Virus record (IMG/VR): IMGVR_UViG_3300022187_000271
Span: 1-22,263 of that record
Length of the DNA: 22,263 nt
Source: a virus
Strand: one strand, 5' to 3'
The position numbers and the translations under genes were made by a program. The notes under the pieces were generated by a model that was given only the letters and a program-made list of their open reading frames with translations, did not search any database and was not told the DNA's origin. This document shows, in pieces, positions 2,470-22,263 of this stretch (within the stretch, counting starts at the first letter, position 1; every line of letters begins with the position of its first letter).

Positions 2470-3935
2470 CAATAGCCTCGCTCGGTCATATCTTCAGAGC
2501 CCGTGTCCCCAAACTGTCGCCGGTAACTGGCGGCAACCTCGGGCTCGTTTGCCGCAAACTGACGAAGCTCTGCGAGTTCTGTGGGATCTAAGAAAGAATT
2601 GCTTTTTTGCCAGTTGGCATACCACTGGTTATAAGCGGACGCTCGCTGTACATCGTTTAAAGACGGATCGCCAAGCTGGTTTTGCAAATTTTCATTGGAG
2701 TAAAAATCGTTCGCCAGCTTGACGTTCAAGTCTGCAATGCGCTTTAGGTACTCTGACTGTTTAAGCAAACCACCCTTCGATGAGGCTAAACCGGGAGATG
2801 CCGCAATAAACAGGCGCATCTCCATCTCAGTAATCGCGCCCTTGGTATCGCCAATCAACTGCATAGCAATACGAGTGCCTAGCGTGTTCAAAAGCTCTTG
2901 GTCACCAAGTTTGCCGTCATACCGAATACCCATATCGTTTAATAGTTTTCGGAACGGCAAGGTTTTCGCTTCGACTACGCCAACATTTTCACCCAATCGA
3001 GACAGCGCAACCTGCATCATATTGATTAATCGCTGTTGTTCTACACCCGCGTTTCTTGCCTCTTCGATTCCGACAATGGAGTCGTTAAGACTTTGGCCCC
3101 GACGCTCCATAAACTTAGATGGGTCTGGCTGGGTGATGTTGACTTCTGTTCCTGCGGAAGAAGCTCGTCGTGCATTAGGCAACAACCGCACAGCGGCGAC
3201 CTCAAGCTTATTGTTCTCATCGACCGGCACCGTCACTTGACGTGTTTCGCCAGTCACAGGATCAACTTCGTCGTATACATAGTTTTGCATTTTAGGGTCT
3301 TTGTTGGATAACTTAATCCGTTCCAACGAAACCTTGTTGAGGTAATCCTCAGCGGCATTCTCGTCTTCGCGAGCCATCTCAAATGCCTTTAGTGCTACTG
3401 CTTGATCGACCTTACGCTTATCCTCACGCTGTTTGCGCAATCGCTTGTGAAAGGCAATGAAGCCAGCCGCAGAACTTGCAAACGGGCCTGTATCTGCCGG
3501 AGCGGAAATCATAGCCTCGCCAAGTTCGGCCGCAAGATCATAAAGCGTAGGGCGCTCACTTTGAGCCATCAACGGACCAAGGCGCCGCTTGTACTCGTCA
3601 TATCGGTCGGTGAAGGTGCGGGTTTTTTTCTGCTCTTCACTCTCTTCTTGCGGCGCTGGCTTAGCCTCAGAATTAGCCGCCTGCTCAAGCAACTCGTCAA
3701 GATCTGGCAACGCAAACGGATCGTCTTCATCCTCTTCTGCAAGAGTGAACCCAGACATATCAAGCGTTGGAGGCGTTAGCGTTGGCGCAGTTGGTAGCGG
3801 TTGCATACCCATAGGAATCGGAGGGATTGCGAAAGGGTCAACGGTAGGCTCGCTAAATATATCAAAATCATCAACACCGCCGCCAAGGGCAAGGCCTCTA
3901 ATCTGCTCTTCCATTTGTGCTCGTGAAATAGCCAT
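2469..3935 (-). CDS. 488-residue internal virion protein candidate
   Basis: The start at 3935 is a TAATG overlap with AGGAGG 6 bases ahead. The first seven residues MAISRAQ repeat the coat protein opening almost codon for codon. Next comes ALGGGVDDFDIFSEP, then a Pro-rich acidic linker (about 30-110). A helical part holds DRYDEYKRRLGPLMAQSERP, TLYDLAAELGEAMISAPADT, SSAAGFIAFHKRLRKQREDK; the C-terminal half holds NTLGTRIAMQLIGDTKGAIT and EMEMRLFIAASPGLASSKGG. The LYD-x-A-x-x-LG-x-[AG] and [GK]-[AG]-[IV]-[ST]-x-x-EM-x-x-F elements are familiar from internal proteins of short-tailed marine phages. Helical, soluble, with no enzymatic motif. Likely an ejection/core protein. Confidence 0.78.
   Translation of the reverse strand: MAISRAQMEEQIRGLALGGGVDDFDIFSEPTVDPFAIPPIPMGMQPLPTAPTLTPPTLDMSGFTLAEEDEDDPFALPDLDELLEQAANSEAKPAPQEESEEQKKTRTFTDRYDEYKRRLGPLMAQSERPTLYDLAAELGEAMISAPADTGPFASSAAGFIAFHKRLRKQREDKRKVDQAVALKAFEMAREDENAAEDYLNKVSLERIKLSNKDPKMQNYVYDEVDPVTGETRQVTVPVDENNKLEVAAVRLLPNARRASSAGTEVNITQPDPSKFMERRGQSLNDSIVGIEEARNAGVEQQRLINMMQVALSRLGENVGVVEAKTLPFRKLLNDMGIRYDGKLGDQELLNTLGTRIAMQLIGDTKGAITEMEMRLFIAASPGLASSKGGLLKQSEYLKRIADLNVKLANDFYSNENLQNQLGDPSLNDVQRASAYNQWYANWQKSNSFLDPTELAELRQFAANEPEVAASYRRQFGDTGSEDMTERGY
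3915..3935 (-). repeat. 21-bp start-codon repeat, copy 2
   Basis: The first seven codons of the 488-residue protein gene (MAISRAQ) match positions 20356-20376 at the start of the capsid gene in 20 of 21 bases; the single difference is the third base of the Arg codon (CGA versus CGC). The regions just upstream share only the purine-rich ribosome site, and the downstream codons differ at once. Confidence 0.9.
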
Positions 3936-6640
3936 TAGGGTCCTCCTCTCAGGCCGGGTGGCGGTGGCGTCTCAATCGGAGTTTGATAGAATTGATTTAA
4001 TTTCGGCGTAAATTGTGGTTGCGCAGGACCACTAGAGTATTGCTGTGTTGGCACGGCTTGCTGTGGCTGGTTGAAGTACGTCCCCAAAGCTCCGAGCGCA
4101 CTCAATCCAGTACCTAATCCGGCTTGTAACGGGCTAGGTGGCGGCGTGTACTGCGTTTGTACTTGGCTTGGCCCAGTCTGACCGGCCGCAAACTGCATGA
4201 ACGGTAGGAGCTGTTGATACTGAGCGAGCGGCGCCTGCTGAGCCTGTAGCAATCCAGCACGTTGTGCATCAAGCATTTGCTGACGCTGTTGCTGTTGCAT
4301 TCCACCGATACCCATTAAGGCCTGCACGTCCTGCTGTCCAGCCTGAGCAAACTGTCCACCAAGCCCTTGCAACTGCTGACCGTAGCCCTGCATAGCTTGA
4401 CCGACCTGCTGACCATACTGACCCTGTACACCGCCAAGCTGACCATATCCCTGAGCCAATTGACCGGCAGTACCAAGCGCCTGCTGACCTGCGCCCATAC
4501 GAGCCTGCATACCTTGTTGACCAAGCTGGCCCATGGTTTGCCCAAGCTGTGTGCCTGCGCCATACATCTGCTGAGCTTGTTGTCCTAACAAGCCGCCAAA
4601 TTGCTGTTGCGCACCAAGACGTTGTCCTGCGGCGCCCATCTGTTGACCGGCAAGCTGTTGCTGAGAACCAAGCTGTTGCCCTGCTAGTCCCTGCTGGAAC
4701 TGACCGAGTTGCTGTCCTGCGCCCAATCTCTGCTGTGCCATCTGTTGTTGCTGAGATGCTAACTGCTGTTGGCTTTGTAGTTGCTGAGCGGCAGTTTGAC
4801 CAAGCTGGCCCTGTAATGCCTGCCGAGCACCAAGCTGGCCTTGAGCCGCCGCCATCTGCTGAGACGTAAGCGCCTGACCGGCGCCGAAGCGCTGACTTCC
4901 TACTGCGGCCAGTCGGTTGGCTAAGCTTTGCTCTGCCGCCAATCTTTGCCCTGCCTCTTGGCCCATTTGCCCAGTTAGTGCCTGCTGTGCGCCTAATCGC
5001 TGTTGTGAAACATCACCTAGACGTCCAGCCATTCGCTCACCAGACGCGGCTAACTGCTGTGCTTGTGAGCCCAACTGCCCAGCCAATGCTTGGCCTGCAC
5101 CAAATCTGGTTTGCGCGCCACTACCTAGCATTTGTGCCGCGCGCTCCTGAGCGCTTAGTCTTTGACCGCTTAATCCGGCGAGGCCAGATGCGGCCGCTCT
5201 TTCTGCGTCACGTTGCCGAGCAAACTCACCCATAGCGCTCTGCTGAGCTCTCTGGAAGCCGCCTGAGCGTATTCCGGCAAGTTCTTTTGCCAATCCACGC
5301 CCTAACGCTTCTCTCCTTTCTCCGGCAGTTAAACGAGCCCTAGAGCCGAAAGCTGACTCTCCTGCTGTTTGCACATCTCGTGCTTGCTGAGCAATATCTG
5401 CTTGAGCTCCAGTTTTCATCATGTCGTCAATGGTTTGCTGAACGACACGATCTTCGTAGGGATCGTAAAACTGCTGTGTCATTGAAGGGTCAAAGCCGCC
5501 AGTTGTTCCACGAAGCAATTGCTCTGACTCTCCGAGCCTTCCGCCGAACTCTTGGGTTGCGCCAAGCTGTCTTTGCTCTGCGGCACTCAAGCCCCGACCC
5601 AAGCCTCGGGCCGCACCAGCAAGTGTGCCAGTGGCACGACGCAAGCCTTGTCCAAGACCAGCTTGAGCCATTCTCTGTTCACCAATACTTTGCCCAAGAC
5701 CTCGATCAAACTGACCAATTCCTTGGCGAAGTTGTTGCGTGGCTTGACCAATGTCTTCACCAAACCTACCAACAGCTCCTCGCTCCTGCCCAAGAGCCTG
5801 AGACAACTGCTGGTCCAACTGTTGCTGTGCGGTCTGTAGCCCACGAGTAGCCTGTCCAACCCCCTGACCGAATTGTTGCTCACCTTCACGGGCCAAAGCA
5901 TCAACACCCGACAATTGGCGCCCAAATCTGTCTGTAGCCGCCGCACCTCTGCCAAAGGCGCCGCTCAAATCACGGCCAAATTGCCCCGTTAGACCGGCTT
6001 GTTGTCGGCCCAACTGCTCGGCTTGTCCGCCAAAACGATCTGCCGCGCCGCCTAATGTTGCGAGGCCCTGATCAAGGCCGCCCTCAAACTGTCCTAATGC
6101 TCTTTGCTGAAAACCGCGTTGCTCGCCCAAGCCTCTTCCAAGCTGGCCAAACGCACCCTGTGACAGTGCGCGTTGCTGACCAATACCCCGTAAAGCATCG
6201 GATAATCCTGCACGTCTTTGAAATCCCTCTTCTGCCGCACCGCGCTGTAACTGACCCAAAGCCTGTCGTTGGGAGCCTAACTGCTGTTCCGCTCCCCTCT
6301 GGATTGCACCCAAACCCCCACGATACTGCTCTTCTGCTCTGCGCAAGAAGGGCTGTAAGCCTCCAACTTGCTCGCGAGCCAGTTGCATCGCGCCAACTTG
6401 GTCTGGAGAGAATCCAGCAATTTGCTGAGGTATAACGATGGGACGTCCCTGTTCATCAAAAAAGGTACGCTCTGCGGCGCGCATCGCTCCGGGAATAAAG
6501 CCGCCTTGACCGCCCAAACCAAACAGCATTTGCTGAACAATAGGGTCCATCTGGCGTTCTTGCCGGGTCACTCCGGCGACGTAAGGGCCTGTCGACCCTC
6601 CATCTTGAAATTTCTTGATTCTCTTAGGGGGCATTATCAT
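3935..6640 (-). CDS. 901-residue Gln/Gly-rich repeat protein, probable internal virion protein
   Basis: The start at 6640 overlaps the previous stop (ATGA) with GGAG about 9 bases ahead; a second in-frame ATG at 6634 is possible. Layout: a basic N-terminus with FQDGGST (11-17); an 18-residue repeat array at 83-370; a core about 371-473 with FYDPYEDRVVQQTIDDMMKT and SAFGSRARLTAGERREALGR; a second 18-residue array at 492-779; a Pro/Gln-rich end with YTPPPSPLQAGLGTGLSALG. I remember the NPY/DPY...AFGSR-x-R core from phage structural proteins. Consensus units are QxxGQxxGxGxxGQFGRxLS and GQRLGAQQALxGQLGQxA. Helical, Gln-rich and in the four-gene block after the tail genes, it is probably an ejected internal protein or an internal scaffold of the core. 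Confidence 0.78.
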   Translation of the reverse strand: MIMPPKRIKKFQDGGSTGPYVAGVTRQERQMDPIVQQMLFGLGGQGGFIPGAMRAAERTFFDEQGRPIVIPQQIAGFSPDQVGAMQLAREQVGGLQPFLRRAEEQYRGGLGAIQRGAEQQLGSQRQALGQLQRGAAEEGFQRRAGLSDALRGIGQQRALSQGAFGQLGRGLGEQRGFQQRALGQFEGGLDQGLATLGGAADRFGGQAEQLGRQQAGLTGQFGRDLSGAFGRGAAATDRFGRQLSGVDALAREGEQQFGQGVGQATRGLQTAQQQLDQQLSQALGQERGAVGRFGEDIGQATQQLRQGIGQFDRGLGQSIGEQRMAQAGLGQGLRRATGTLAGAARGLGRGLSAAEQRQLGATQEFGGRLGESEQLLRGTTGGFDPSMTQQFYDPYEDRVVQQTIDDMMKTGAQADIAQQARDVQTAGESAFGSRARLTAGERREALGRGLAKELAGIRSGGFQRAQQSAMGEFARQRDAERAAASGLAGLSGQRLSAQERAAQMLGSGAQTRFGAGQALAGQLGSQAQQLAASGERMAGRLGDVSQQRLGAQQALTGQMGQEAGQRLAAEQSLANRLAAVGSQRFGAGQALTSQQMAAAQGQLGARQALQGQLGQTAAQQLQSQQQLASQQQQMAQQRLGAGQQLGQFQQGLAGQQLGSQQQLAGQQMGAAGQRLGAQQQFGGLLGQQAQQMYGAGTQLGQTMGQLGQQGMQARMGAGQQALGTAGQLAQGYGQLGGVQGQYGQQVGQAMQGYGQQLQGLGGQFAQAGQQDVQALMGIGGMQQQQRQQMLDAQRAGLLQAQQAPLAQYQQLLPFMQFAAGQTGPSQVQTQYTPPPSPLQAGLGTGLSALGALGTYFNQPQQAVPTQQYSSGPAQPQFTPKLNQFYQTPIETPPPPGLRGGP
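4304..5167 (-). repeat. Second 18-residue (54-bp) repeat array, 16 units
   Basis: Residues 492-779 of the same protein again divide into 16 gap-free units of 18, with consensus GQRLGAQQALxGQLGQxA. Sample units: QQRLGAQQALTGQMGQEA, GQRLAAEQSLANRLAAVG, SQRFGAGQALTSQQMAAA, GQQLGSQQQLAGQQMGAA. The last four units decay into Gly/Gln-rich sequence but keep the spacing. The phase and consensus differ from the first array, so it is a separate expansion. Confidence 0.88.
5531..6394 (-). repeat. First 18-residue (54-bp) repeat array, 16 units
   Basis: Residues 83-370 of the 901-residue protein divide without a single gap into 16 units of 18 residues. Column 13 is L, I or F in 15 of 16 units, and column 17 is aliphatic or Ala in all. 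Sample units: GAFGRGAAATDRFGRQLS, QALGQERGAVGRFGEDIG, QATQQLRQGIGQFDRGLG. Eighteen residues equal five turns of an alpha-helix, so the hydrophobic columns align on one face. DNA of the units is diverged, with no exact long repeats. Confidence 0.88.
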
Positions 6641-14020: not shown

Positions 14021-14696
14021 TTTCTGCACCCGCGTATAAGTTGTCGAACACTTGGTTCACGTCCAAGGTGTAGTCTAAGTCAGATTTGCTGTAATGGATA
14101 TGCTGGGAAGGCCTAAAATCTGGGGCGCCATCACCTAGCTCGAACTGCGCAGGTCGCGTTACTCTTACTCGGTTATTAGGTAACGCAACAATATTACCCG
14201 TCCACTCCCCCGCATCGAGCAACTCCAGCACATGGCTTTGCTTGTGTTGTGCAGGGTCGTCCGCCGTATCTGACTCGGTATAATCCACAGTAAAGTAGTA
14301 TTTTGCCGGGTAAAACTTGCCATCAATTTTTGCCATCCAAGGGCATGGGTCACAGTTTTCTAACTTGTAGACGCTGTGGGTTCGAGATGCGCAGTCCCAC
14401 GGCTGTGCCGCCCAAACAGGCATTGGCTCAGCCCATTTATCGAAGGGGGTGTCCCCCACGAGAGCGGTGATAGGCATACGAGCCCACATTGCGCCCCCGT
14501 GGAGGTTCGGCTCATCGGTATCGTAAGTCTCAGCCCCGGTAAATATGACCTGAAAAGACAGGCATCGCTTGGGTAGCGTCGTGACACCGATGACCATGGC
14601 ATGAAGAAATTCGCCATGGTATTTCTCGTGATTGTGCGTGTACTCTTTTCTGACCCAGCACTTAAAGTACGGGATGCTGGACTGGAGAAATGCCAT
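14001..14696 (-). CDS. Conserved marine-phage tail/neck-region protein
   Basis: 231 residues, starting at the TAATG junction. It opens MAFLQSSIPYFKCWVRKEYT, followed by EKYHGEFLHAMVIGVTTLPK and a beta-rich middle (LHGGAMWARMPITALVG; PMPVWAAQPWDCASRTHSVY). Later segments are DGKFYPAKYYFTVDYTES and HVLELLDAGEWTGNIVALPN. I remember this N-terminal pattern from proteins encoded just ahead of the neck genes in uncultured marine phages, but no function is established as far as I know. It is rich in aromatics and Cys for a phage structural protein. There is no transmembrane segment or catalytic motif. The 3' end overlaps the next gene by 20 bases. Confidence 0.8.
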   Translation of the reverse strand: MAFLQSSIPYFKCWVRKEYTHNHEKYHGEFLHAMVIGVTTLPKRCLSFQVIFTGAETYDTDEPNLHGGAMWARMPITALVGDTPFDKWAEPMPVWAAQPWDCASRTHSVYKLENCDPCPWMAKIDGKFYPAKYYFTVDYTESDTADDPAQHKQSHVLELLDAGEWTGNIVALPNNRVRVTRPAQFELGDGAPDFRPSQHIHYSKSDLDYTLDVNQVFDNLYAGAENGDERE

Positions 14697-15172
14697 TATC
14701 GGCCATATAGTCCGCTGTTTTTGTTTGAAGGAGCGCGCACTGAATTAGACGTGGCTTTGCTCTTCATAGCGCCGCCAGCGGCCTTTCCCTTAGCTTTCAT
14801 CATGCCAGATCCGGGTCTTCCTACAGCAATCATAACTTGCGTTGCGTCTTCTTTATTGCCAGCGCCACCTTTAGCGTAACCTTTAGTCTTCATTTTCATG
14901 ATTGAGCCTCCCTCGGCCGCAAACGTACTTACATTAGTGGGCTTACCACCCACACCTTGCTTTTTCGCTCGCTTGCGCCTGACGGCGGAAGCTACTTGTT
15001 TCTTTGACATCTTTGCGGCCTTAGCCGCAGGCACACATTTCGGATAGTCACGATCTGAATCATCGGCGCTTTGGCGGCCACACTTTTCATAGCCGCCGCC
15101 CTCTTTTGGGGCGCTAATATCAACCCAGTTCTCGCTTCCGAACCAGTCTTTAAGTCCGCGTTTTTTAGCCAC
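14696..15172 (-). CDS. DUF5872-like small protein
   Basis: 158 residues from a GTG start (15172) that overlaps the previous gene by 8 bases; the conserved domain begins at once, so a later start would remove it. Residues 5-60 show DWFGSENWVDISAPK, EKCGRQS and DYPKCVPAAKAAKMSKKQV, the WVD(I/L)...P...CGR...YP-x-C-x-P pattern that I associate with the uncharacterised DUF5872 family of marine phages and giant viruses (recalled, not searched). KKQGVGGKPTNVSTF follows. The C-terminal 75 residues are a Gly/Lys/Met-rich tail with FAAEGGSI (84-91), YAKGG and AAGGAM. The two conserved Cys (31 and 46) could bind metal. The stop overlaps the next start as TAATG. Confidence 0.82.
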   Translation of the reverse strand: MAKKRGLKDWFGSENWVDISAPKEGGGYEKCGRQSADDSDRDYPKCVPAAKAAKMSKKQVASAVRRKRAKKQGVGGKPTNVSTFAAEGGSIMKMKTKGYAKGGAGNKEDATQVMIAVGRPGSGMMKAKGKAAGGAMKSKATSNSVRAPSNKNSGLYGR

Positions 15173-15449
15173 GAGGCACTCGCACAGTTCTACGCTTGTT
15201 TTGCATCATAGCGCCACAACCCCGAGGTTGCATCTCCACAGAGCCGCCTGTATTCATTTTTTTAGCTTTGACTTCTCCGCCAGTCGCTTTTTTGGCGCCT
15301 TTATATTCTCCTCCCATGCGCTGATACTCTTGCACCATAAATCCGTTTGCGTATGCGGAAGGATATACCTCAAATTTAGCCTTGGCCTTAGCCTTAGCTT
15401 TTTTATAAATTTCGGGGTTAGCGACGTTGTCTGGTATTTTGCTTGCCAT
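15165..15449 (-). CDS. Small Lys/Gly-rich conserved phage protein
   Basis: 94 residues. The first half is a helix-rich block IYKKAKAKAKAKFEVYPSAY followed by ANGFMVQEYQRMGGEYKG, a pattern (basic helix, PSAYA, then EY-x-x-[MR]GG-x-Y) that I recall from small proteins in many marine phages. The second half is basic and low-complexity with two GG-x-V elements (TGGEV at 56-60, TGGSV at 67-71) and ends RGCGAMMQNKRRTVRVPRG. Calculated charge is strongly positive. It could bind DNA or acidic capsid surfaces, but no function is known to me. It overlaps the upstream gene by one base and the downstream gene by 8 bases. Confidence 0.8.
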   Translation of the reverse strand: MASKIPDNVANPEIYKKAKAKAKAKFEVYPSAYANGFMVQEYQRMGGEYKGAKKATGGEVKAKKMNTGGSVEMQPRGCGAMMQNKRRTVRVPRG

Positions 15450-18043
15450 TATCCGCGACCTCCTCTTGAGCCTCTATAGCCGGGCGGGAACGTGCCCATT
15501 TTTGGTGGTGATTTAGGCGGTGCTGGAAGAGGCTTGATTCCTGCCGTGCCAGCCGGTACGCGCTCATCAAGTCGTCCACGTAGGTTAGCAATCTGCTCTC
15601 GAATTCCACCTAAATCTACCTGCGGGATGTCAATTCCCTCTCTAACTCTTCGGGCAATAGCGTCCATATCTACCGTAGGCCTTTCGTCCATACGGCCTCG
15701 CAGATTAGCAATTTGCTCTCGGATTCCGCCTAAATCGACCTGTGGGATGTCAATACCTTCTCTGACTCTTCGGGCAATAGCATCCATGTCGACTGTAGGC
15801 CTTTCGTCTAAACGACCACGTAGTTGCGCAATTCTCTCAGTCAACGGGGTTACCTGCCCCCTGACCTCTTCCAGTCTGCCGCCAAGGCGCTCTTCAATAG
15901 CGCGACGACCAGCCGTTGCTTCGCCCTGTCTTTCTCGCAAAGCCGCCAAACGCTCTTGTAGCGGATCAATACGTCCACCAACTTCTTGTATGGCGCGCTG
16001 ACTAGCTGATTGCTGTGCTTGCTGTTGCTCTCTCAATCCAGCTAGTTCAGCGTCTCGGACACTCGCTCTGGCGCTTGCTTCTGAGTCTAAGCGCTCTTGT
16101 TCAGACCGTAGTCTTTCAGATTGCTCTCTGAATGAGGCCGATGATGATTCAAGCTGACCACGAAGATCCGCGATTCTTGGGTTGATTCCACTGCGTACAC
16201 GCTCTGCAATAGCCGCTTCGTCAGGACCTTCACGGCTTTCTACCGCACGTAGCCTTTCAAGCACCTCTGGTGGTAATCCACGGTTTTCTAAAGCCGCTAT
16301 CTGCGTTTGTAGTTGAGATGGGTCAAATGTTTCTCCCGGCATATTGCCAAGTCGACCGCGCAATTCACCAATTTGCTCTCTAATAGTAGACAAATCAGGC
16401 CCTTGACGCCCTTCTACTGCGCGTAGCCGCTCAAGTACGTCAGGGTCCATTCGTCCGCGTCCTTCCTCAAACCTACGGCGTAACTCTTCAATCTGACGTT
16501 GCGCGTCAGGGTTAATGCCGATGGCTTGTCGAGCATCAATGCCCTCTTGAACTCGACGACGAATATCTTCGATATCAATGTTTGGCAATCCCTCAAGGCG
16601 ACCACGTAAGTTACCAATCTGCTCGCTAATGGACGATGGATCAAACTGCTGTCTAAACTGCGCGACTGATTCGCGGACACTATTAACCCGCTCCTCTACC
16701 GGCGTAAGGCGCTGGTTAAGTTCTGCGCGTAAGCCAGCAATTTCTTGCTCAGGGGCGCCAGCATCAATACTGTCTTGAATCCGGCGCTGTAGTGACTCAA
16801 TGTCTACCCGCTCCTGTTCTGGTAGCTGGCTAATAATTTGTTGGCGTATTGCATCAACATCAATATCAGGCAGTGCGCCGACTTGACCACGTAGTTCACC
16901 TATCTGCTCGGCAACACTGCCACGAGACTCTTGTAGCCCCTGTAACTGCTCCTCAACGGGGCGAATCCGGTTCTGTAGCTCTTGACGTAAAGCGTCAATT
17001 TGCTCAGGCGGTGCACCACGGTCGATACTCTCTTGAATCTGTCGACGTAAGTTTTCTACATCCACCTGCTCCTGCTCTGGTAAAAGACGCATCACCTCAT
17101 CACGAATTTGAGTTACGTCAGGAAAATCTTGCTGAGCAAGAGCAAGAACCTCTCCTGTAATCTCTCTGCGTAACGCTTCCGTGTCTATTTGTTCTGGCAT
17201 TTGACCAAGAATGTCTTGGCGCAACTGAGCGCCAAAGGCGTCTAAGTCTGGGCCTTCTTGCCCCTCTAGCGCCGCAATTCGATCCATGAGCGCCTGACGC
17301 TCTGAAGATGCCATATCTGTTTGTTGTTGTGCTTGTTGCTGTGCCGCCTCTTGAGCCGACTGAATCTGTTGTGCGAACTGATCGTACTGCGCTTGCAAGC
17401 CGGGTTGTTGCGCCTGCATAGCCGCCAAACCACCAGAACCTCCGGCATCGCTGTATCCGTAAGAAGGCATATCTGTCGATGGCATCGATGTTTCAGGGCG
17501 AGCGCCTCGGTCAAACACTGACCGATTCATCAAAAAGTCGGTGGCCCCTGCATAGGGGCTTTGCCCTGAAGAGTATTCTTGAAAGGCGCGCGACATGAGA
17601 TTGTCGTAAGAGCCAGCTCCGGGATCGCCGAACAAGTCGTCAAATCCGCCCATAGCAGGAGGAGGTACGGGTCCACCGGTCATTGGTGGTGGCATAGGCC
17701 CCGACATTATTGGCGGCTGTTTTACGGGAGGAAGCGGCTTAATGCCAGCCGTTCCGGGAGGCACATAATTTGGGCTAGAGGGATCTACTCTAGGCCCGGC
17801 ACTGCCAAGCGGGTATTCCCCCGTTCCGTCACCGCCCATAGTGCCCATCATAGGTGGGTTTGGGTCGAAAGGGGGCGACTGATAACGATCGATGGACTTG
17901 GGTTCTCTTATGGGTGGAGGGGGCTTTATGCCACCAGTACGCATAAAGCCGGGTCGCGGTGCGTTGGTGCGAGGGTTTTTTACAATTTGCTGTGCAAACG
18001 CCAACGCATCTGCGTGTTGTTGATCTGTAAATGATCTCTTCAT
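15449..18043 (-). CDS. 864-residue Pro-rich / coiled-coil repeat protein
   Basis: Not recognised as a named family. Residues 30-135 are Pro/Gly-rich and probably disordered (GGIKPPPPIREP; GTAGIKPLP at 97-105). Residues 135-180 are mixed (FDDLFGDPGAGSYDNLM), 205-245 are Gln/Ala-rich, and about 250-830 are charged helix with recurring EQIGxLRGRL...LPxIDIEDIRRRVQEGID units. Two 40-residue units at 741-780 and 781-820 are almost identical. The C-terminus repeats the Pro motif (GTAGIKPLP at 832-840) and ends GYRGSRGGRG, whose codons also supply the AGGAGG for the next gene. ATG at 18043 follows GGTGA, which contains the previous stop. A long rod-like virion part (fibre, stalk or internal rod) is the likeliest role. 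It has no peptidase, lysozyme or tape-measure domain that I can see. Confidence 0.85.
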   Translation of the reverse strand: MKRSFTDQQHADALAFAQQIVKNPRTNAPRPGFMRTGGIKPPPPIREPKSIDRYQSPPFDPNPPMMGTMGGDGTGEYPLGSAGPRVDPSSPNYVPPGTAGIKPLPPVKQPPIMSGPMPPPMTGGPVPPPAMGGFDDLFGDPGAGSYDNLMSRAFQEYSSGQSPYAGATDFLMNRSVFDRGARPETSMPSTDMPSYGYSDAGGSGGLAAMQAQQPGLQAQYDQFAQQIQSAQEAAQQQAQQQTDMASSERQALMDRIAALEGQEGPDLDAFGAQLRQDILGQMPEQIDTEALRREITGEVLALAQQDFPDVTQIRDEVMRLLPEQEQVDVENLRRQIQESIDRGAPPEQIDALRQELQNRIRPVEEQLQGLQESRGSVAEQIGELRGQVGALPDIDVDAIRQQIISQLPEQERVDIESLQRRIQDSIDAGAPEQEIAGLRAELNQRLTPVEERVNSVRESVAQFRQQFDPSSISEQIGNLRGRLEGLPNIDIEDIRRRVQEGIDARQAIGINPDAQRQIEELRRRFEEGRGRMDPDVLERLRAVEGRQGPDLSTIREQIGELRGRLGNMPGETFDPSQLQTQIAALENRGLPPEVLERLRAVESREGPDEAAIAERVRSGINPRIADLRGQLESSSASFREQSERLRSEQERLDSEASARASVRDAELAGLREQQQAQQSASQRAIQEVGGRIDPLQERLAALRERQGEATAGRRAIEERLGGRLEEVRGQVTPLTERIAQLRGRLDERPTVDMDAIARRVREGIDIPQVDLGGIREQIANLRGRMDERPTVDMDAIARRVREGIDIPQVDLGGIREQIANLRGRLDERVPAGTAGIKPLPAPPKSPPKMGTFPPGYRGSRGGRG
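15459..15464 (-). promoter_or_regulatory. Shine-Dalgarno embedded in the upstream gene's C-terminus
   Basis: AGGAGG on the minus strand, 9 bases before the ATG at 15449. It is read as Arg/Gly codons in the SRGGRG tail of the 864-residue protein, and the stop and start overlap as TAATG, so translation of the small gene is probably coupled to that of the large one. Confidence 0.8.
15584..15823 (-). repeat. Two tandem 120-bp units inside the 864-residue protein gene
   Basis: Units 15704-15823 and 15584-15703 each encode 40 residues (LRGR[LM]DERPTVDMDAIARR followed by VREGIDIPQVDLGGIREQIAN). The two proteins differ at one residue (L versus M) while the DNA differs at roughly one base in eight, nearly always at third codon positions. 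A partial third copy (LRGRLDER) follows. More diverged copies of the same pattern lie upstream in the gene. Confidence 0.92.
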
Positions 18044-18890: not shown

Positions 18891-19340
18891 TTACGCATTG
18901 TTTATGTTCTGAATGTACTCAACAGTCACATAGCCAGCGCCGCTTGTTCCAGCAGAGAAGTCGATAAAGATTGGCAAGTCTGAAGTGCCAATATCTACCC
19001 AAGTATCTGCGTCAGTGATTGTTCCGTCGCTTCCATGGTGGATTACGTTAGCCGCCGTTCCAGCCGCCAGAGCGGTAAAAAGCTCGGTAGACGTCGCTGA
19101 CGTTCCCATTGAAATGTTAGCCGCATCACAAGCCGTGGTGATGTAAACAGTCACCTCGGTAACTTGACTGTTTGCAGGAACAACAATGCCGGTATCGGCC
19201 GCTGTAGTGCTTTGAGTCCAGCTTGCAGTTTGAGCCATTGTGACAAAACCGACGTTTTTAACGTCACTGCCAACAGTGGTTCCAGTTGTATCTTTAATTG
19301 TTCCGGCCTTAATTGGACCAGAGAAAGTTGTAGTAGCCAT
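18891..19340 (-). CDS. Small beta-rich virion protein, unknown
   Basis: 149 residues. An open frame continues upstream to 19442, but that extension would be encoded across the terminator. The ATG at 19340 has CAGGAG about 8 bases upstream and opens a normal-looking protein (MATTTFSGPIKAGTIKDTTG). The composition is Thr/Ala/Ser/Gly-rich with almost no Lys/Arg, alternating hydrophobic strands (VTEVTVYITTACDAANISMG, LPIFIDFSAGTSGAGYVTVE) and no signal peptide. It ends EYIQNINNA. This composition is typical of phage beta-sandwich structural proteins, and I recall similar proteins next to coat genes in marine phages. It is the first gene after the capsid terminator, so its expression depends on read-through or on a promoter I could not identify. 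Confidence 0.8.
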   Translation of the reverse strand: MATTTFSGPIKAGTIKDTTGTTVGSDVKNVGFVTMAQTASWTQSTTAADTGIVVPANSQVTEVTVYITTACDAANISMGTSATSTELFTALAAGTAANVIHHGSDGTITDADTWVDIGTSDLPIFIDFSAGTSGAGYVTVEYIQNINNA

Positions 19341-19363
19341 GATAAGTCTCCTGTCTTGGCAAA

Positions 19364-19381
19364 TGTCAGTTGTAACTGTCA
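19364..19381. repeat. Imperfect inverted repeat in the leader after the terminator
   Basis: TGTCAGTT-GT-AACTGTCA: two 8-base arms matching at 7 of 8 positions around a 2-base centre. It lies between the capsid terminator and the next start codon, in the only intergenic stretch longer than 15 bases (19341-19458). It could be an operator-like site or a weak RNA hairpin; with a 2-base loop a DNA-binding dyad is at least as likely as a hairpin. Function unknown. Confidence 0.35.
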
Positions 19382-19415
19382 GAAAGACCTTATCATCATA
19401 GACCTGAATGAAGAC

Positions 19416-19440
19416 AAAAAAAAGGGGGCCATTGGCCCCC
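19416..19440 (-). terminator. Intrinsic terminator after the capsid gene
   Basis: Read on the minus strand this is GGGGGCC-AAT-GGCCCCC followed by eight T residues: a 7-bp all-GC stem with a 3-base loop and an unbroken U tract, a textbook rho-independent terminator. It starts 18 bases past the capsid stop. I saw no comparable hairpin elsewhere in the window. It would end or thin transcripts coming from the head genes before the tail genes begin. Confidence 0.9.
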
Positions 19441-19458
19441 AAGTCTCACTACTGAAAC

Positions 19459-20376
19459 TTATGCGCCCTGTGATCCGTAGATGCCTCTCCAGTCAGAGAA
19501 TCCGAATGAATAACGCTCACGCGCCTTGTATCGGATGTTGCCTGTGCTGAAGTCTGGCTCCATAGACGTCTCCATCGCGGTACGCTGGAACATCTTGAGT
19601 CCTTCACCAGATTCGGTGACAGACGTCAGGATGAAGTACGCATCGGGGTCAGTCAGGTAATGGTTTACCGTGTAACCACCGGGCAGTACGCCAGTGTTGC
19701 GAATGGCGTTGATGTCGTTGTCAGCAGTGCCAACACGCAATTGCGAGTTGAGAATGCGGTCAGCAACGAACGTCAACTGTGGTGGAATGACTAGCTTGGT
19801 CGCTTGTACTGAGATGGTCAGACCGCGATCGTCAGTGAAAGTGCTGATATCGATCAGCGAATCTTCCAATGAAGTCTCGTTAAGGTCAGCCATAGTAGTT
19901 GCGCGGTTCGCTAGAGTTCCGCCACCTGCCAGTGGGTGTGCTGTAGAAATCATTGGCTGTCCGTCACCACCAGCAAAGCTGGTGTTGAAAGCGTTGTTAA
20001 GGACATCTGCGCCCTTAACTTCCTTGGTGTTAGCCATTGATCGAGCCAGTGCCTTCACGTAACGGCGGCCGAGTGAGTCGTAAAGGTTGTCCTCTACAGC
20101 CTCATCAGTCAGCGAAAACGCTAACGCAATGGTGTCGTGGGTATAACGAGCCGTGAAGCCTTCTGACGCAGTGTCGAAAGATACACCCTGACCTTCGGTC
20201 TTGACAGGTGCACTTCCGAAGCCTGTGATCAGAACTTCTTCTTCAAAAGCACGTTGCGAGTCTTCAATAGAGAAAATCTCTTCATACTCACGGTCGTATG
20301 TGTCATAGCTCATGCCGAACAAGGCGTTAAGGCCGGGTTCAAGCTCTTTCGCTAATTGTGCGCGTGAAATAGCCAT
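19459..20376 (-). CDS. Major capsid protein (Mu gpT-like, HK97 fold)
   Basis: 305 residues. It shows the pattern I know for the Mu-like major head subunit gpT family: an N-terminal helical region (ELEPGLNALFGMSYDTYDRE), an E-loop-like FEEEVLITGFGSAPVKTEG, then YTHDTIALAFSLTDEAVEDN, RRYVKALARSMANTKEVKGA, the GDGQPMISTAHPLAGG segment, DDRGLTISVQATKLVIPPQL and a C-terminal FGFSDWRGIYGSQGA. There is no obvious cleaved propeptide, so assembly probably relies on the separate scaffold gene upstream. The Shine-Dalgarno AAGGAGG (20385-20391) sits 8 bases before the ATG and is the strongest in the head block, as expected for the most abundant virion protein. An intrinsic terminator follows within 20 bases of the stop. 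The first seven codons nearly match those of the gene starting at 3935. Confidence 0.93.
   Translation of the reverse strand: MAISRAQLAKELEPGLNALFGMSYDTYDREYEEIFSIEDSQRAFEEEVLITGFGSAPVKTEGQGVSFDTASEGFTARYTHDTIALAFSLTDEAVEDNLYDSLGRRYVKALARSMANTKEVKGADVLNNAFNTSFAGGDGQPMISTAHPLAGGGTLANRATTMADLNETSLEDSLIDISTFTDDRGLTISVQATKLVIPPQLTFVADRILNSQLRVGTADNDINAIRNTGVLPGGYTVNHYLTDPDAYFILTSVTESGEGLKMFQRTAMETSMEPDFSTGNIRYKARERYSFGFSDWRGIYGSQGA
20356..20376 (-). repeat. 21-bp start-codon repeat, copy 1
   Basis: The first seven codons of the major capsid gene, MAISRAQ, matched in 20 of 21 bases by the start of the gene at 3935. Both copies are preceded by a strong AGGAGG-type ribosome site at 6-8 bases. Confidence 0.9.
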
Positions 20377-20389
20377 CTAATTAGCCTCC

Positions 20390-20977
20390 TTATGCCAAGC
20401 CAGCAGACTTAACACCCGCAATGTGGTTTTGGATAACCACCTTCACGTTGGTGTTAGCGCTTGCTACGTCGTCGTTGTCGGGATCTTGGCTGATATCAAT
20501 GGCCTTGAGTGGCAACGTAGTGGTAGTAGCACCAGTCGTTACGTCAAGTTCCATGTTAGATCGGCCAGAGCGGGTGTCACCGGTAGGTGTCTGATCAACA
20601 ACATCAAAGTTGCCGAACAAGTCAGCTACTGGGAATGTGTCGTCAGCTTGTACCTCGAAGACAACATTTGGATCATCAACGATAAACGCGATGATGTCGT
20701 CTGCGGCTACGCCACCGGGGTAGTAGTTTGAAAAAACCTGCTCTTGAGTAGTTGGGTCCGTATACCGACAGCCGTTGAATACACCAACGACTGGTACGGT
20801 AGATGAGGCCGCCGCACGAGAAACAGTACCGCCAGTTAGTTGCTTAACCAAGTCGCCTTGGAAAATAGCACCAGATTGGTTGTTGGCGATTCTATAACGT
20901 GATTGGCCACCTGAATACGGAGCACCGCCCATCATGTGAGCAGGACGAAGTCCAAAAGCGGCATCTTTATTAGCCAT
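20390..20977 (-). CDS. Probable head decoration/stabilising structural protein
   Basis: 195 residues, beta-rich and low in charge, beginning MANKDAAFGLRPAHMMGGAP, an opening I associate with a family encoded beside the coat gene in many marine phages. Later features are a Gly/Ala-rich segment (YYPGGVAADDIIAFIVDDP), a segment predicted as strand (NVVFEVQADDTFPVADL) and a Thr-rich loop. The start has a good Shine-Dalgarno (TAGGAGA) about 8 bases upstream; an 11-base gap separates it from the previous gene. The stop TAA overlaps the Shine-Dalgarno of the capsid gene. Position directly before the coat gene and the compact beta-rich make-up suggest a capsid decoration or cement protein; this is inference, with no fold shown directly. 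Confidence 0.75.
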   Translation of the reverse strand: MANKDAAFGLRPAHMMGGAPYSGGQSRYRIANNQSGAIFQGDLVKQLTGGTVSRAAASSTVPVVGVFNGCRYTDPTTQEQVFSNYYPGGVAADDIIAFIVDDPNVVFEVQADDTFPVADLFGNFDVVDQTPTGDTRSGRSNMELDVTTGATTTTLPLKAIDISQDPDNDDVASANTNVKVVIQNHIAGVKSAGLA

Positions 20978-20988
20978 GGATCAATCTC

Positions 20989-21456
20989 CTATTGCTTACC
21001 AAAGGTTACACGGCTACTGCGGTTAGGATCATATTGTACATACCGAGAATCGCCTCGGGTCTCATTGAACATATTATTGTCCAATGCGTCCTTAGCTTTT
21101 GCCGCCTCATTAGCGTAGTGTGCACTGCGCTGTTCGACGAACTCCTCGGGCATCTTAGCCAACAGTAAGCCCTCGTTATAAACGACACCTTCATGCCTTC
21201 CGTTGTCCATGGTAGGAAGTTCCCATTCGGGAGGAAGGTCGGTTCCACGAACCAGTTCCCATCCTTCACGAAGACGACGCGAGACATTAGCCCGGTCTTC
21301 CGTTCCTAACATACTCTCCCGAATCCATCGGTATACATAACCGGGGGGTGCCGGAGGAGTTTCCAACTTACGCACTGGGCGCCATACTTTTCGCCGAGCC
21401 TGATTATCGTGCGCTCCGCTTTCACGCGAAGAACGGGTGTTTTTTGTATCTGCCAT
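20989..21456 (-). CDS. Conserved marine-phage head-region protein of unknown function
   Basis: 155 residues. I place the start at the ATG at 21456, not at the upstream in-frame codon at 21513, because it forms a TAATG overlap with the preceding stop and has AGAGAGGCAAGG just before it. The N-terminus is polar (MADTKNTRSSRESGAHDNQ). The core carries WRPVRKLETPPAPPGYVYRW followed by a Ser/Arg-rich stretch (NVSRRLREGWELVRGTDLP), then GLLLAKMPEEFVEQRSAHY and a helical C-terminus. I remember proteins with this layout from uncultured marine phages, always near the coat gene, but know of no function. There is no membrane segment or enzyme motif. Lying between scaffold and coat genes, it is probably a minor head component. 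Confidence 0.8.
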   Translation of the reverse strand: MADTKNTRSSRESGAHDNQARRKVWRPVRKLETPPAPPGYVYRWIRESMLGTEDRANVSRRLREGWELVRGTDLPPEWELPTMDNGRHEGVVYNEGLLLAKMPEEFVEQRSAHYANEAAKAKDALDNNMFNETRGDSRYVQYDPNRSSRVTFGKQ

Positions 21457-22263
21457 TACCTTGCCTCTCTTTGAGCTACTTTCTGTTTCTCTTTTGCCAC
21501 AGCCTTGAGCCAAGCTTCCTCGGTCATGTTGTGTGGCTTAAGACCACGCAATCGCTCCAATTCACCAGAGGTGAATTTAACACCGTTCTTTTTGCCTCGT
21601 GTTTGTGGCCGACCACTTGTCTGGGCGGACGCAACTCTTTGCACGGCGGGTTGACGTCCTGTTGATTCGGCCGCATCCGTGTCGTTGCCGACACTTTTGC
21701 TTAAGTTAGGATAAACCCTCTGAACCCGAGAATCTAGTGCATCGTAATATTCATCGGAATCCGGTTCAAATCCTTCATTGATAAGGTTGTAATGAGTGAA
21801 ATAGGCAAACTGAGTAGCTTCAACATTTGTCTCATCCTCACCATCACCATACCAAGGGTTTTTTTCATGCCAGCTTAAAGCTTCTTTTGTGGGCTCAGGC
21901 TCCGCTTGCTGAGGTGCCATTTGCTGTTGGGGAACAGCTTGCTCCATAGGCTCGTACTGCTCTTGCGGCATCTGCCTACTTTTTGCCACTCGAAGTTTTT
22001 CTTTCTTTATGGCAAGGTCATTCTTTAAGGTGTCTGCCTTAGACATAAGATCTGCATCTTGGCTTTGCACCGCTTTTTTGTAGATATCATCTACTTGTTG
22101 CTCTTGCGCCTTAAGCTTATCTTCCTCAGCTTGTAACGTAGAAGCCTGACCTTGTACCGCCAGTTGCTTGTACTGAGCCAGCTCGTTTTGTTGCTGGGCA
22201 AGCATAGCCTCGTACTGCTGTGCGCGTTGCTCAGCCTCACGAGTTTTAGCATTAAGTTTATTA
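21456..22263 (-). CDS. Scaffold-like capsid assembly protein, 5' end missing
   Basis: The frame is open to the right edge of the window (about 19 codons upstream of the Met at 22205 are still coding, rich in A, E, R and Q), so the start lies outside and this is a partial gene. What is visible is a long charged, Gln-rich helix of about 90 residues that looks like a coiled coil, then a Pro/Gln-rich linker, an acidic aromatic segment (WHEKNPWYGDGEDE, later EGFEPDSDEYYDALDSRV), a Ser/Thr/Gln-rich linker and a basic helical C-terminus (SGELERLRGLKPHNMTEEAW). A helical, charged protein encoded just before the capsid genes, ending in a basic helix, fits a phage scaffolding protein that would bind coat protein inside the prohead. 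The stop overlaps the next start by one base (TAATG). The role is inferred from position and composition; another internal head protein is possible. Confidence 0.65.
   Translation of the reverse strand, partial: NKLNAKTREAEQRAQQYEAMLAQQQNELAQYKQLAVQGQASTLQAEEDKLKAQEQQVDDIYKKAVQSQDADLMSKADTLKNDLAIKKEKLRVAKSRQMPQEQYEPMEQAVPQQQMAPQQAEPEPTKEALSWHEKNPWYGDGEDETNVEATQFAYFTHYNLINEGFEPDSDEYYDALDSRVQRVYPNLSKSVGNDTDAAESTGRQPAVQRVASAQTSGRPQTRGKKNGVKFTSGELERLRGLKPHNMTEEAWLKAVAKEKQKVAQREAR

Follow-up and report, generated by a model that had tools for sequence, protein, structure and literature searches.

The repeat gene and its genomic setting

The window analysed here is the whole of a 22,263-base IMG/VR virus record (IMGVR_UViG_3300022187_000271). 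On its minus strand, between the capsid and adaptor genes, lies an open reading frame of 864 codons (15449..18043) whose product, the repeat protein, has relatives in 24 distinct IMG/VR contigs by our own count over the scan listings. Scans with the whole protein as query found 20 loci, several of them truncated, and queries with parts of the protein added more. The 864-residue protein begins with a proline-rich N-terminus, followed by a conserved region (aa 140-345, 17009..17626), which is 77-91% identical to the window in an alignment of 12 sequences, a long helical repeat region punctuated by prolines, and a proline-rich C-terminus. Towards the end of the repeat region stand two adjacent copies of a 40-residue unit, unit 1 (aa 741-780, 15704..15823) and unit 2 (aa 781-820, 15584..15703), and directly after unit 2 the first seven residues of a third copy, LRGRLDE (aa 821-827, 15563..15583). 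The protein closes with a tail (aa 829-864, 15452..15559) containing TAGIKP and FPPG motifs. In an alignment of 13 rows the TAGIKP-like and FPPG-RG columns of this tail are kept in most rows, and L046 lacks the FPPG part. All of these features are encoded on the minus strand.

Judged by its genes, the window is a tailed-phage fragment, with predicted late genes similar to those found in the HTVC023P and CRP-901 groups; the CRP-901 phages are treated in PMC10149686. The capsid protein (19459-20376) shares 59-67% identity with six phage records, including DSL-LC04, HTVC023P and CRP-902, and the adaptor genes match phages of the DSL-LC04/HTVC023P/CRP-902 type, one of them also weakly matching a solved adaptor (7z47, E 0.0029). 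The late module of HTVC023P, CRP-901/902 and DSL-LC04 has its capsid, adaptor and other late genes in common with the window, but the stretches of six such records (L022-L027) contain no relative of the repeat protein. The gene at 9011-10909 matches 9nwi, which is named as a capsid and scaffold protein, and weakly matches the nozzle chain of 8zkk. In contigs near-identical to the window the sequence continues with portal and terminase genes at one end and with 2OG-Fe(II) oxygenase and exonuclease genes at the other. No spike or fibre gene was confidently recognised among the proteins scanned, which were a subset of the ORFs of an incomplete genome.

Several neighbouring sequences deserve mention in their own right. 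The next gene (15165-15449, minus strand) matches Pfam PF19197 (DUF5872) with 32.6 bits against a cut-off of 27.5. Downstream of the nozzle gene a 901-residue protein (3935-6640, minus strand) consists mostly of short Gln/Gly/Ala-rich repeats (RLGAQQ-like) and has no Pfam or PHROG match. The capsid region on the contig of L016 (L051) is 90% identical in DNA to positions 18891-22262 of the window, and the repeat gene is far more diverged.

The family of the repeat protein is unnamed in the libraries that we searched, and its evolutionary pattern is of a known kind. Searches of 50,697 phage records with blastn and tblastn revealed no relative of the protein (tblastn), nor did a search of PDB sequences and two scans of cellular genomes, and comparison with PHROG, Pfam and PDB gave no confident match. 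The best PHROG hit of the conserved region had an E-value of 0.0074, which is not a confident match, and a tail fibre PHROG matched two of 12 family members with a best E-value of 0.036. We took an SbcC-like PHROG match to be driven by composition, and likewise the Pfam matches to DUF1664, a scaffold family, EF1_GNE and DUF3349, all of which fell below the cut-off. None of the papers listed in literature searches deals with this protein, and six structural terms gave no passage in PMC9599517.

A tandem repeat kept at the protein level

Units 1 and 2 agree in register at 39 of 40 residues, with L745/M785 as the sole change, so that the single Leu/Met difference reported in the preliminary description is correct. 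Its coordinates for the pair (15584-15823) are also right, and Tandem Repeats Finder independently detects the array (15576-15823, period 120, 2.1 copies, 84% matches, score 370). As adjacent in-frame copies of one unit, the two form a protein tandem repeat. At the DNA level 18 of the 120 bases differ (15%, or one in 6.7), slightly more than the earlier estimate of about one in eight. Sixteen of these differences are silent third positions, as expected from the same description, and the other two are bases of the TTA/ATG (Leu/Met) codon.

Chance and random recoding can be ruled out as the source of this identity. In 200 shuffles of aa 205-830, at offsets of 20-60, the best 40-residue window had at most 14 identities, compared with the 39 observed. 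When unit 2 was randomly recoded with synonymous codons 5000 times, 29.9 +/- 3.2 bases differed between the units against 18 observed, and 14.1 +/- 2.8 codons were identical against 23 observed (P 0.0006). The silent sites are thus not fully randomised, which indicates that the units share ancestry at the DNA level and that a dS near 1 is a rough value.

An in-register comparison by the Nei-Gojobori method gives 16.5 synonymous changes over 29.2 sites, hence a dS of 1.05, a rough figure resting on 29 sites, and 1.5 non-synonymous changes over 90.8 sites, hence a dN of 0.017. The resulting dN/dS of about 0.016, a ratio that the preliminary description had proposed to compute, lies nowhere near the value of 1 that would have spoken against constraint. 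Given that 24% of sites are synonymous, the binomial probability of 16 silent changes among 18 is 1.4e-8. The same contrast holds among relatives: in 11 distinct full units, 37 of the 40 residues are invariant while 34 of the 40 codons vary. These comparisons support the view that strong purifying selection keeps the unit at the protein level. Such selection, holding the unit unchanged, would explain why units near-identical as protein differ at about half of their silent sites. The earlier proposal of strong purifying selection is therefore upheld, by the low dN/dS and by the preservation of the protein between genomes whose silent sites have diverged far.

A constraint of another origin could come from an antisense gene, the plus-strand ORF at 15492-16001. 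In the window, L006, L012, L016, L019, L020 and L046 the frame does have only 0-2 stops across the final 170 codons. However, random synonymous recoding left it as poor in stops in 24% of 2000 trials, and the frame contains seven stops in L007 and five in L014. On these grounds we ruled out the antisense gene, an explanation that we would credit with hardly any probability.

More diverged copies of the unit lie upstream, as the preliminary description had noted. A stretch with EQIGNLRGRLEGLPNIDIED (aa 464-510, 16514..16654, minus strand) aligns to the units without gaps at an offset of 302, and aa 369-408 (16820..16939, minus strand) align in the same gap-free manner, at an offset of 95 to aa 464-503. 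Six comparisons among the older and other repeats of the protein give pN/pS of 0.44-0.67. Together, the gap-free copies and the older-repeat comparisons support the earlier idea that the protein grew from diverged copies of the unit.

Protein tandem repeats kept by purifying selection are described by Persi et al. 2016 (PMC5120217) and Schaper et al. 2014 (PMC3995336), and the window protein resembles these cases in that its copies are selectively kept and conserved between genomes. Persi et al. report that, as a rule, the copies inside one protein drift apart faster than copies in different species do. In the window protein the older repeats fit this rule and look accelerated (pN/pS 0.44-0.67), but the last pair departs from it with its dN/dS of about 0.016.

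Copy number and divergence among relatives

The number of unit copies ranges from 0 to 3 across the relatives, and a need for two units is not supported by this. Single full units are present in L012 and L016-L018, two in the window, L002-L004, L006, L008 and L020, and three in L019. Diverged versions are found in L007, L010, L011, L014, L015, L021, L046, L047 and L067, and none was seen when the homolog protein of L048 was read by eye. Units were judged by eye in L046, L047, L048 and L067 and by scan in the other relatives, of which L005, L009 and L013 end before the end of the array. From 28 unit-like stretches scanned, seven that had under 37 matches out of 40 did not enter the distance counts; of the remaining 21, ten were set aside because they were identical at the units to those of the window (L002, L003, L004, L008) or of L016 (L017, L018), leaving 11 distinct units.

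Among these 11 units, two copies from one genome resemble each other no more closely than two from different genomes do. The six within-genome pairs, which come from four alleles, differ at 18, 18, 20, 21, 22 and 23 bases (mean 20.3), and the 49 between-genome pairs at 18.2 bases on average (range 8-25). The excess within genomes is not significant (permutation P 0.083). This excludes recent gene conversion in our sample: the homogenised units that would have contradicted the preliminary description were looked for, and the copies within genomes are not homogenised (20.3 vs 18.2).

Recent slippage, or gene conversion within a genome, might otherwise have made or homogenised the copies. The differing unit numbers of the relatives would suit such a process, as would the window pair taken alone, since an AU test that forces only these two units as sisters gives no rejection (P 0.157). 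However, the window units differ at 18 of 120 bases, mostly silently, none of the six within-genome pairs falls below 18 differences, and the AU test rejects a tree that groups the units of each genome (P 0.0024). A tree in which just the L020 units are forced as sisters is likewise rejected (P 0.0008); the tree used for these tests took in one partial L009 unit and two outgroup units. Recent slippage and within-genome conversion were ruled out by the pair divergence and the AU test, and we consider them extremely improbable.

One reading of the divergence between neighbours is that it is itself favoured. Phage recombination would quickly delete identical tandem copies, so only copies with different codons would persist. 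Under this reading copies within a genome should differ more in DNA than copies between genomes, a tendency that is weakly seen (20.3 vs 18.2, P 0.083). We think it rather improbable that codon divergence protects the copies, but if true, it would provide a simple rule for the persistence of repeats in phage structural genes.

A conserved unit in a fast, mosaic gene

The gene around the units evolves quickly. Across the repeat gene as a whole, 13 of 14 relatives have a pN of 0.133-0.334; the value for L009, 0.051, comes from a comparison of the last 75 codons only. For comparison, pN is 0.007-0.031 for the capsid gene in the six relatives that hold it and 0.017-0.092 for the second adaptor gene in eight relatives. 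The small neighbour genes at 14696-15172 and 15165-15449 evolve fast too (pN 0.059-0.348). In these gene-level values only the best-aligned stretch is counted, so that the pN of a relative may rest on part of the gene.

The unit segments, computed with coordinates one residue late (742-781 and 782-821), have a pN of 0-0.017 in L006, L019 and L020 and of 0 over 24 codons in L012 and L016, whereas it reaches 0.12-0.49 in L007, L010, L011, L014, L015 and L021. The values in these six other relatives limit the strong constraint to one type of C-terminal end. As far as these alignments indicate, the unit is a conserved island within a fast gene in relatives with this type of end.

Parts of the gene seem to have been exchanged between phages. 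L010 (125 codons) and L015 (46 codons) match the window over aa 346-470 at a pS of 0.12 and a pN of 0, and L014 matches it over aa 471-540 at a pS of 0.14, while most other segments of the gene are far apart. This pattern suggests that the repeat gene is a mosaic made by recombination. The silent divergence consequently provides no date for the window pair, because recombination in a mosaic gene could join copies that had already diverged. The preliminary description called the duplication old, which does not follow for this pair alone, whose sister relation is not rejected (AU P 0.157). The pair may go back to an old duplication, or two old alleles may have been joined in it more recently.

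The second of these origins can be put more specifically: phage recombination by unequal exchange would have joined units that diverged silently in separate lineages, so that the pair might be young and its units old. This is consistent with the mosaic gene and its near-identical segments in L010, L015 and L014. It is also consistent with the middle unit of L019, which differs from unit 1 of the window and unit 2 of L006 at 15 bases each but from its own neighbours at 20 and 21, and with unit 1 of the window, whose closest counterpart is the last L006 unit (10 differences). Furthermore, a contig that is 99.5% identical to the window over 2,095 bases carries a gene for an exonuclease VIII-like protein, so that a recombination function may be available. 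Position in the array points the other way, as units that share an end differ somewhat less (on average at 16.2 bases first-first and 16.3 last-last) than units from opposite ends (20.1), and the three last units with a Met codon cluster with a support of 83, or of 48 once the partial unit is added. We therefore see this joining as an alternative worth keeping, although one with the lesser share of the probability.

Predicted structure and possible role

The preliminary description envisaged a continuous coiled coil, the 40 residues of a unit being about 11 helical turns. This is not what the predictions suggest. AlphaFold2 models of the whole protein (17 sequences, mean pLDDT 60.1, pTM 0.29) and of aa 690-864 (13 sequences, mean pLDDT 69.6, pTM 0.22) are both of low confidence, and both break the helices at prolines 749, 767, 789 and 807, which divide the units, giving two short helices per unit with proline linkers between them. 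In the model of aa 690-864 the helices span aa 753-763 and 771-785, then 793-803 and 811-828. Hydrophobic core residues over aa 733-830 recur with a period of 3.64, as in amphipathic helices. A viral fold search with the C-terminal model returned no matches at E <= 0.001.

Coiled-coil phage tail fibres are, as a kind, long, helical and repetitive products of late genes, and the window protein resembles them in all of these features. It differs from them in the short, proline-broken helices of its units, as seen in the low-confidence models, and in having no confident match to a fibre family.

The explanation that we favour, and hold to be probable though far from certain, combines these observations. 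One late gene would make a long helical protein in which, for much of the sequence, prolines interrupt the helices at intervals of ~15-25 residues, and its end would be assembled from 40-residue units, each comprising two short amphipathic helices. These units would have spread by in-frame duplication and probably also by exchange between related phages, which would explain why their number differs between genomes. Each copy would then be kept at the protein level by strong purifying selection while its silent sites drift. Each unit might make one kind of contact, either with other subunits of a bundle or with a partner that is itself repeated, and the protein as a whole would be a virion rod docked via its proline-rich ends. 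For this last part, a rod on the virion, we put the chances at roughly even, judging from gene position, length, helical repeats and proline-rich ends.

The main alternative is that the repeat protein, rather than being an external rod, is an internal, ejection or assembly protein, with units that make their contacts within the head or while the particle is assembled. Gln-rich helical stretches, the location of the gene among head and neck genes and a weak, below cut-off Pfam match to a scaffolding family are compatible with this, and an internal virion protein stands among the best rows of the viral fold search, with a non-significant E-value of 2.1. On the other hand, gene order places a likely scaffold gene elsewhere, before the capsid gene, and the protein has no significant match to any known internal protein. 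An internal or assembly function is in our view possible but somewhat unlikely.

The locus offers a clean natural case in which tandem-repeat copy number, silent drift and protein constraint can be separated across related phages.

The ends of the repeat protein show a further pattern. A proline-rich motif of the TAGIKPLP type is found near both of them, in the window at 15452-15559 and at about 17705-17758 (minus strand), and possibly acts as a docking motif. In the homolog of L048 (436-2208), the YAGGSPNFDERTG and RTGG motifs of the N-terminus recur in the C-terminus. A DxNxNGxDDRDE loop, absent from the window protein, occurs in the N-terminal part of the homologs in L006, L007, L009, L010, L013-L018, L047 and L048, and we take it to resemble a calcium-binding EF-hand loop.
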